Part shown: positions 26,733-39,976 of the stretch, one piece after another
Numbering within the stretch: the stretch's first letter is position 1
Layout of the letters: each line of letters opens with the position of its first letter
NCBI GenBank assembly: GCA_020718645.1
Contig: DYRQ01000008.1
Coordinates: 1-42,454 of the forward strand
Source: Verrucomicrobium spinosum
GTDB taxonomy: Bacteria; Verrucomicrobiota; Verrucomicrobiia; JADLBR01; JAIBCM01
Length of the DNA: 42,454 bases
Direction: 5' to 3'
Notes under the pieces: model-generated
Seen by the model: the letters and a program-made list of their open reading frames with translations, nothing else
Database searches by the model: none
What the model was told of the DNA's origin: nothing
Position numbers and translations under genes: made by a program

Positions 26733-26756
26733 AAAAAAAGCGGCAGGAGCCGCTTT
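26733..26756 (-). terminator. Rho-independent terminator after the secretin operon
   Basis: An 8-bp stem, AAAGCGGC/GCCGCTTT, with a four-base loop. On the minus strand it is followed by a run of T. It sits 24 bases after the stop of the secreted-protein gene (26780) and before prfC, separating the two. Confidence 0.85.
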
Positions 26757-38337: not shown

Positions 38338-38374
38338 ACAAAAAAAAGCCCCCCCCGCTTGCGCGGAGGGGGGC
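38338..38374 (-). terminator. Rho-independent terminator of flagellin
   Basis: A GC-rich 11-bp stem with one bulged A and a TTGC loop spans 38348-38374. On the minus strand it is followed by a run of seven to eight T. It sits 34 bases after the flagellin stop. It could also act weakly on the facing TPR gene. Confidence 0.9.
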
Positions 38375-38408: not shown

Positions 38409-39206
38409 TCAGCTCAGGAGCGCGAGGACTGCCTGCTGCGAGGCATTGGCTTGGGCGAGCATCGCTGTGCTGGCCTGGAGAAGAATATTATTCTTCGACA
38501 AGTCAGTGGATTCGGAGGCGATGTCCAAATCCTTGATGCGCGAGTTGGCCGCTTCCACATTGATCCGCTCTGTGCGGATGTTCTGAATGTGGAAGTTGAA
38601 CTTCGAGATATCCGAGTTCACCTCAGCACGGCGAGTGGTCACCGATGATAAGGCTGACGACAGCGATGTGATCGCACTCTTAGCCGAATCCAGCGTGTTG
38701 ATAGACACACTGTCCAGGCTCAGGCTCACCGTCTTGGTCACAAAAGTATCCACTGATCCCTCTGCGTTAATCGCAACGGTGATCGAGGACGCTGTGAACA
38801 ATGAGGTGCCGTTGAAGGTCGCATTACTCGCTATCGAGGTAATCTGCGTCTTCAAGATATCGAACTCGGTCGCGTAGTTAGCACGGTCAGAAGAGCCGAA
38901 GGCTCCGTTGGTCGCGCGCTGCGCTAGCTCGCTCATGCGGGTCAGCTGCTGTTGGATGGTTTGCAAGAAACCGTCGGTCGTTTGGGCAAACGACACCAGG
39001 TTCTGCGAACCCTCTACAGCGGCCATAAGCCGCTTGACCGAGGCGTCCAGTTTGCCGCTCACAGCGACACCGGCCGCATCGTCCGTGGGATCCGCTAATC
39101 GGGAACCCGCGGAGAGCTTCTTGATGTTCTTGGTCAACGCCTCGTTATTGAGGGTCAGATAGAATGAGGCGTTCAACGCGCCGACATTCGTTCCTATAGT
39201 TGCCAT
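38409..39206 (-). CDS. Flagellin
   Basis: A 265-residue minimal flagellin, the filament subunit. The start ATG 39206 gives MATIGTNVGALNASFYL and has AAGGAG nine bases upstream. The N-terminal D0/D1 part (1-145) shows LTKNIKKLSAGSRLADPTDDAAGVAVS and the helix ending in QRATNGAFGSSDR. The C-terminal D1/D0 part (about 180-265) has the VNSDISKFNFHIQNIRTERINVEAANSRIKD segment and ends NASQQAVLALLS. The variable D2/D3 region is almost absent, about 40 residues. No other flagellar gene is in the window. Its structured leader suggests post-transcriptional control (see the leader entry). Confidence 0.95.
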   Translation of the reverse strand: MATIGTNVGALNASFYLTLNNEALTKNIKKLSAGSRLADPTDDAAGVAVSGKLDASVKRLMAAVEGSQNLVSFAQTTDGFLQTIQQQLTRMSELAQRATNGAFGSSDRANYATEFDILKTQITSIASNATFNGTSLFTASSITVAINAEGSVDTFVTKTVSLSLDSVSINTLDSAKSAITSLSSALSSVTTRRAEVNSDISKFNFHIQNIRTERINVEAANSRIKDLDIASESTDLSKNNILLQASTAMLAQANASQQAVLALLS

Positions 39207-39338
39207 AGGTCTAGTCTCCTTGTTGTTCGGCCACATCATGTGGCCGCGCCGATCCTTCGGCAGCTCGTTTTGTGAAGGGTCGAGCAACCTTCACGACTAA
39301 ATCCTTTTAGCCGTTAACGGGATATTCGTCCTTTTTCT
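39207..39338 (-). promoter_or_regulatory. Structured flagellin leader with CsrA-type AGGA-loop hairpins
   Basis: Read on the minus strand, 5' to 3', the leader holds: a free AAGGAC near 39331; CCGTTAACGG (39311-39320); CTAAA-AGGA-TTTAG (39297-39310); GTGAAGG-N9-CCTTCAC (39272-39294); GCCGA-AGGA-TCGGC (39248-39261); CGGCCACA-TGA-TGTGGCCG (39228-39246); and the AAGGAG Shine-Dalgarno (39216-39221). Two hairpins show AGGA in a tetraloop, the preferred CsrA/RsmA target, and a further GGA is the ribosome binding site. Binding of one CsrA dimer to a loop and the Shine-Dalgarno would block translation, as known for hag in Bacillus. CsrA itself is not encoded here. Confidence 0.7.
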
Positions 39339-39348
39339 TAGAAACCTT

Positions 39349-39364
39349 AGCAAATTGTTGCCCC
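39349..39364 (-). promoter_or_regulatory. Candidate sigma-54 promoter of flagellin
   Basis: On the minus strand GG (39362-39363) and GC (39350-39351) are exactly ten bases apart. The -12 part reads TTTGCT, which is good, while the -24 part GGGC departs from TGGCAC. Initiation would fall near 39338, ahead of the hairpin series. Confidence 0.35.
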
Positions 39365-39387: not shown

Positions 39388-39717
39388 TCATCCCATCTCT
39401 TCAAGCGCTTCACAGACCTGCTGCCAACCAGGAAAATTCCATGAATTCGGAAACCCTTGACATTGTTTTGGTTTTACAGGATGCACACGGCACCCTCGCC
39501 CATCAAACAGGATGCATTCGTGGTTCTCCCTGCTGCTCAAGGTCAGCGCTGTGCGGTCAGGCATTAACTCGGTATATTCTTGGATGAAATCCTGTTCTTC
39601 CATACCGAGAAAAGCTGAGAGCCGAGTGATGTCCGCCTCCTGGAGCTTGACCGTTCCAGGCCAAGTGCAACAGCGATTGCACCGCTGGCAAAAATACCAT
39701 TTTTTGAAAGTCTCCAC
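39388..39717 (-). CDS. YkgJ-type cysteine-cluster protein
   Basis: A 109-residue protein of the CxCxxCC (YkgJ/UPF0153) family, which is thought to chelate zinc or iron. The N-terminal cluster is FCQRCNRCC (Cys10, 13, 16, 17), and further cysteines are in NHECILFDGRGCRVHPVKPKQC near the end. The start is GTG 39717, with ACAGGTG about five bases upstream. It begins 22 bases after the 3' end of tRNA-Thr, so the two may be one transcript. Its biological role is unknown. Confidence 0.82.
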   Translation of the reverse strand: METFKKWYFCQRCNRCCTWPGTVKLQEADITRLSAFLGMEEQDFIQEYTELMPDRTALTLSSRENHECILFDGRGCRVHPVKPKQCQGFPNSWNFPGWQQVCEALEEMG

Positions 39718-39739: not shown

Positions 39740-39811
39740 AGCCGGAGAAGGGAATCGAACCCTCGACCCGCAGTTTACGAAACTGCTGCTCTACCACTGA
39801 GCTACTCCGGC
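39740..39811 (-). tRNA. tRNA-Thr (CGT)
   Basis: The acceptor stem GCCGGAG pairs with CTCCGGC, with discriminator T and no encoded CCA. The D-arm is GCTC-AGTGGTA-GAGC. The anticodon arm GCAGT-TTCGTAA-ACTGC gives CGT at 34-36. The T-arm GAGGG-TTCGATT-CCCTT closes with one G-T pair. Confidence 0.95.
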
Positions 39812-39903: not shown

Positions 39904-39976
39904 AGGCGAGGGCCGGAATCGAACCGGCGAAATGGGGCTTTTGCAGAGCCCTGCCTTACCACTTGGCTACCCCGCC
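39904..39976 (-). tRNA. tRNA-Cys (GCA)
   Basis: The acceptor stem GGCGGGG pairs with CCTCGCC (one G-T), with discriminator T as is usual for tRNA-Cys and no encoded CCA. The anticodon arm GGGCT-CTGCAAA-AGCCC gives GCA. The T-arm is GCCGG-TTCGATT-CCGGC. A run of T follows about ten bases downstream. Confidence 0.96.

Follow-up and report, generated by a model that had tools for sequence, protein, structure and literature searches.

The leader of a flagellin gene in the window (the whole stretch of 42,454 nucleotides analysed here, from Verrucomicrobium spinosum) very probably acts as a CsrA repression element within a CsrA-FliW-flagellin homeostasis circuit, as judged from its sequence and from analogy with known flagellin mRNAs. 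An earlier note on this DNA had proposed a CsrA-like switch on flagellin translation, and this proposal gains support from the csrA-fliW pair of the genome and from GGA loops in the flagellin leaders of relatives. As csrA also co-occurs with flagellin and the GGA loops are enriched, there is good support for a predicted brake by CsrA that FliW would lift.

Flagellin transcript and GGA sites

The flagellin transcript and its leader contain the following features:
39322..39349, minus strand: predicted sigma-28 (FliA) promoter, with -35 TAAGGT(TT) and -10 (A)CGAATA
39293..39314, minus strand: hairpin H1, ACGGCUAAA-AGGA-UUUAGUCGU, at the predicted 5' end, candidate CsrA site
39263..39294, minus strand: H-type pseudoknot formed by S1 and S2 pairing, linker AAAA
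39248..39261, minus strand: hairpin H2, GCCGA-AGGA-UCGGC, candidate CsrA site
39228..39246, minus strand: hairpin H3, CGGCCAC-AUGAU-GUGGCCG, AUGA pentaloop, adjacent to the Shine-Dalgarno sequence, with loop conservation and covariation
39216..39221, minus strand: Shine-Dalgarno sequence AAGGAG, which also fits ANGGA and could be the second contact of a bridging CsrA dimer
38412..39206, minus strand: flagellin gene, 265 aa, ATG at 39206
38349..38372, minus strand: strong intrinsic terminator 3' of the flagellin gene, giving a single-gene transcript

Four flagellins are encoded in the genome. A gap of 181 nt separates the ATG of the one described here from a small unrelated gene that ends at 39388. 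Two tRNA genes are found close 5' of flagellin on the minus strand (39740-39811 and 39904-39976), with a 109-aa ORF (39388-39717) in between.

The predicted promoter (39349-39322) matches TAAAGT/CCGATA at 9 of 12 positions, which is weak alone since the window has dozens of equally good matches, and this weakness makes the transcript start uncertain. The leaders of relatives have 10-12 of 12 sigma-28 matches at the corresponding place, with a single spacing in 29 of 33, and FliA is encoded in the genome (213 bits). Transcription would start near 39315, a position backed by the relatives' promoters, which gives a leader of about 109 nt with H1 at its extreme 5' end. The switch as first proposed depended on a start that is not downstream of 39248, and a start near 39315 lies upstream of both AGGA hairpins, with the reservation that the promoter match is weak. 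An AAGGAC motif that the earlier note had listed near 39331 as another site does exist (39333-39328), but it falls between and inside the predicted -35 and -10 elements and is probably not part of the mRNA.

Both perfect AGGA-loop stems described earlier were recovered, CTAAA-AGGA-TTTAG at 39310-39297 and GCCGA-AGGA-TCGGC at 39261-39248, and they lengthen to 9 and 6 bp when G-U pairs are counted. When 39207-39338 was dinucleotide-shuffled 20,000 times, an AGGA tetraloop on a perfect stem of 5 bp or more appeared singly in 17 shuffles and as a pair in none. The remainder of the window has one further tetraloop of this kind, at 26745. When RNA from the predicted start at about 39315 was folded, the pairs of H1 and H2 had probabilities of 0.8-0.97, apart from about 0.6 for the innermost A-U pair of H1, and both loops were at least 94% unpaired. 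A 156-nt leader is more stably folded than its shuffles, with a z of -4.4. H2 was also considered as a terminator and rejected, as this was a mere plus-strand pattern match to the palindrome.

High-affinity RsmE/CsrA targets present an ANGGAX hexaloop (PMC4005645), and the CsrA SELEX consensus is RUACARGGAUGU (PMC7652899). As drawn, H1 and H2 have tetraloops, in which the N and X of an optimal ANGGAX loop are missing. However, the innermost pair is A-U in both hairpins, and its opening gives A-AGGA-U (AAGGAU), i.e., an ANGGAX hexaloop. The own H3 has no GGA, whereas H3 of the paralogue on contig C13 reads ACAGGAUGU. The paralogue also has a counterpart of H1 with GGA in its loop, and H2 shows compensatory changes against relatives.

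The reading of AAGGAG (39221-39216) as the ribosome binding site stands, as it lies 9 nt 5' of the ATG. Its GGA overlaps the Shine-Dalgarno sequence and is outside any stable hairpin in the window leader. The GGA spacings are 49 nt from H1 to H2 and 36 nt from H2 to the Shine-Dalgarno sequence. Both fall within the 10-63 nt over which one CsrA dimer bridges two sites (PMC7652899), so that the leader combines three suitably spaced GGA sites, two of them in hairpin loops.

Two of the four flagellins (1241-1500 of locus L028, G000 C114, and 1232-1491 of L033, G000 C80) are preceded by sigma-54-like promoters and lack the H1-H2 type of hairpin arrangement, which means that not every flagellin is under CsrA-type control. 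Sigma-54-like promoters (TGGCA..-N-..TGCT, GG/GC 12 apart) also replace sigma-28 before flagellins of relatives (L017, L072, L104), which suggests two transcription classes of flagellin with differing leaders.

Flagellin leaders, csrA and fliW in relatives

In 70 verrucomicrobial flagellin leaders (34 close, 36 distant), every loop tetramer carried by a stem of 5 bp or more was counted without preselecting a motif. AGGA occurred in 12 of 34 close leaders against 0.6 expected and was among the top three loops, and GGAT occurred in 12 of 36 distant leaders against 0.4 expected, where GGA-containing loops (GGAT, AGGA, GGAA, TGGA, CGGA) lead; the leaders share descent, so these counts are not independent. 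The comparison with relatives that the earlier note had called for thus finds GGA-loop hairpins recurring on unrelated stems. In many distant leaders (e.g., L011 and L021) the Shine-Dalgarno sequence is by eye itself in a loop, such as ACUC-AAGGAA-GAGU. Five of the distant leaders (L011, L010, L020, L021 and L093) have a further conserved block, UUGGCAGCC...GCCAA, 5' of the pseudoknot and upstream of flagellin. The same loci have a CCCCGCAAGGGG hairpin followed by a Shine-Dalgarno hairpin, ACUCAnGGAAGGAGU, with no Rfam match.

A covariance model of the block from H2 through H3 to the Shine-Dalgarno sequence gave matches well above noise exclusively before flagellins: two in the own genome (the window and C13), four in G042 and one in G264. 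Except for C13 and one G042 leader these matches are in or near the training set, so the model shows restriction to flagellin and not new discovery. It found no such block before other genes of the own genome. The strongest weak match elsewhere (G229 C194, E 0.001) was set aside, as it is not before a recognisable flagellar gene. In a five-sequence alignment, 5 of 11 pairs changed on both sides, compared with 0-2 when the structure was slid.

A search of the genome for csrA and fliW, suggested earlier as a check, detected both (E 2.4e-19 for csrA; E 8.9e-29 and 100.7 bits for fliW), with fliW directly upstream of csrA. The encoded CsrA has 86 aa and an extended C-terminus. Of the RNA-binding residues L4 and R44, Arg44 is kept and Leu4 is conservatively replaced by Ile. 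The residues of CsrA that contact FliW are V/I51 and N55 (PMC7829508); N55 is present, and an Ile is found at 52 instead of 51, one residue off in the alignment.

Among 384 Verrucomicrobiae genomes, 83 have both csrA and flagellin, three csrA only, nine flagellin only and 289 neither (Fisher p 1e-69); the genomes are mostly MAGs, which makes the absences soft. csrA adjoins fliW in 83 of the 84 genomes of the class that have both. Flagellin is directly downstream in several relatives, e.g., in the order fliW 29917, csrA 30307, flagellin 30607 on C18 of G055. An apparent fliW-csrA-flagellin operon was seen in ten genomes (G055, G017, G348, G379, G233, G115, G047, G340, G195 and G087), and its flagellins have no long leader. 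Judged by gene content, csrA in Verrucomicrobiae is essentially a flagellar gene. Two CsrAs without N55 come from genomes with no detected fliW or flagellin (G160 and G342, loci L172 and L173) and have possibly been released from flagellar duty. No CsrA-type hairpins were found in the 60 nt just 5' of csrA in the clade relatives.

Pseudoknot and AUGA hairpin

The earlier note described three further hairpins as spacers between the GGA sites. The one nearest to the Shine-Dalgarno sequence is real (H3, 39246-39228), but the other two are helices of a single pseudoknot; they are mutually exclusive if nested and compatible as one pseudoknot at 39294-39263. S1 (GUGAAGG/CCUUCAC) pairs 39294-39288 with 39278-39272, and S2 (GCUCG/CGAGC) pairs 39285-39281 with 39267-39263, with GCUCG enclosed by S1. 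The same topology is formed by other arm sequences in C13 (CCAG/CUGG), G120 (GAUGG/CCAUC), G106 (GCCGAA/UUCGGC) and G047 (GACGGAC/GUCCGUC).

For the own pseudoknot, a comparison with 300 shuffles gives p=0.010. The distant sigma-28 leaders as a group are above shuffles with a Fisher p of 2e-6, and they are the best judge since the geometry was picked after inspecting the close group; by itself, the close group gives a weaker signal (p 0.02 and 0.002). Several single leaders, C13 included, are not above their own shuffles. In an arm-swap test of the pseudoknot and H3, the pseudoknot arms paired far better with their own than with swapped partners. Pairing had guided the choice of arms, which biases this result; the shuffle and loop-blind tests are free of this bias. 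As a structured leader RNA the element resembles Rfam families, but Rfam 15 gave no match for the leader in the window at E values up to 5 and none at the gathering threshold in 20 related loci. We found no description of the pseudoknot in open-licence full texts, and a pseudoknot recurring in flagellin leaders across the class is apparently new. Outside the helices no nucleotides look invariant by eye except the A-rich linker, and pairing to the Shine-Dalgarno sequence was not seen. Because the unpaired nucleotides look non-invariant, a spacing or scaffold role is favoured, and the pseudoknot would most likely determine how far apart the H1 and H2 sites are and how they are oriented.

A loop-blind search found a hairpin with a 5-nt loop at -36 to -29 in 15 of 33 close leaders, and 13 of the 15 loops read A-N-G-A-H, compared with 1 of 43 hairpins in control windows; the position had been selected after an earlier look at the close leaders. 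These loops are AUGAU (6), AUGAA (4), AUGAC, AGGAU and ACGAU. AUGA is kept at -31 to -34 in one clade on mostly unrelated stems, which argues that the loop is selected. A conserved AUGA hairpin next to the Shine-Dalgarno sequence is apparently new. The loop of the own H3 is AUGAU, without a GGA core, while the same hairpin of paralogue C13 has AGGAU. In Campylobacter flaA a GGA to UGA change abolished CsrA binding (PMC4894983), and AUGA is therefore not an expected target of a canonical CsrA. H3 might be a conserved protein-recognition hairpin and perhaps a derived CsrA contact. AUGA as the site of a start codon ahead of flagellin, or of a leader peptide, was rejected. Relative to flagellin, its AUG is in frame in the own and a few other leaders and out of frame in others, and no ORF end is conserved at this place.

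The CsrA of the clade has Arg29 throughout and mostly altered residues 41, 43 and 48, and one could hypothesize an altered CsrA specificity. Arg29 as a direct reader of the AUGA loop was rejected, as position 29 of RsmE touches the penultimate stem pair and not the loop (PMC4005645) and the co-change is a correlation within one clade. G029, which lacks Arg29, also has one AUGAA hairpin. That the class-wide pseudoknot sets the CsrA geometry and that one clade's CsrA reads AUGA besides AGGA, with protein and RNA having changed together, is a speculative and rather improbable combination.

Proposed regulation and alternatives

From the anatomy of the leader and its likeness to hag and flaA, the switch would work as follows. 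FliA probably starts the transcript near 39315, and CsrA would dock on H1 and H2 through their GGA loops, whose distance and orientation the pseudoknot may fix. The dimer would reach the AAGGAG downstream of H2 and block ribosomes, with H3 perhaps as a derived CsrA contact. Flagellin export would free FliW to bind the C-terminal helix of CsrA and lift the block, as the linked fliW-csrA genes and the conserved Asn55 suggest.

The leader resembles that of Campylobacter jejuni flaA (Dugar et al. 2016, PMC4894983), where two ANGGA hairpins, one of them over the ribosome-binding site, repress translation. Both are flagellin mRNAs with two GGA-loop leader hairpins, a GGA at the ribosome-binding site and a sigma-28 promoter (predicted here), in genomes with csrA and fliW. 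However, the flaA leader is 45 nt long with its second hairpin over the ribosome-binding site, whereas here the leader is about 109 nt and the Shine-Dalgarno sequence is outside the hairpins. The pseudoknot between the GGA hairpins, the extra AUGA hairpin and the phylum differ as well. In Bacillus subtilis hag, CsrA represses at the Shine-Dalgarno sequence, and FliW relieves this by binding the extended CsrA C-terminus (PMC7652899). The leader described here would share this mode of control; the phylum differs, and the part of PMC7652899 cited here mentions neither a pseudoknot nor an AUGA hairpin for hag.

CsrA could also bind the leader for mRNA stability or localisation and not for translation repression, and a hairpin at the extreme 5' end can protect an mRNA. 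In E. coli, CsrA has a stabilising effect on flhDC (PMC7652899), and flaA mRNA is localised to the pole under CsrA-FliW in Campylobacter (PMC4894983). We consider this unlikely, since the Shine-Dalgarno sequence doubles as an ANGGA motif and lies close enough to H2 for bridging, which is the anatomy of a repression site, and the linkage to fliW suits flagellin homeostasis. It is very unlikely that the pseudoknot is a metabolite-sensing, riboswitch-like aptamer that gates the Shine-Dalgarno sequence, with CsrA secondary or absent. The compact H-type fold of the pseudoknot, its frequent A-rich linker and its recurrence 5' of flagellin across the class would suit such a role, but the stems differ freely in sequence and length, as those of known aptamers do not, and the lack of visible invariant nucleotides and Shine-Dalgarno pairing also speaks against it.

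Binding of the hairpins by an RNA-binding protein other than CsrA would fit the AUGA of H3, given the loss of CsrA binding in flaA (PMC4894983). This has even less in its favour, as the same hairpin of the paralogue carries AGGA, GGA prevails among the loops of distant leaders, and the occurrence of csrA follows that of flagellin with few exceptions. Short stems are common by chance in any sequence, yet the empty result of 20,000 shuffles and an arrangement conserved with compensatory changes leave chance hairpins without function a negligible prospect. Repression of flagellin translation by CsrA is thus the reading we retain.

A CsrA-FliW flagellin circuit in Verrucomicrobiae was not found described in open-licence full texts, and the leader would extend the known CsrA-FliW flagellin brake to this class. 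The pseudoknot and the AUGA hairpin provide recurring, cleanly testable RNA parts that raise questions about the three-dimensional spacing of CsrA sites and about a possible drift in the GGA rule of CsrA recognition.
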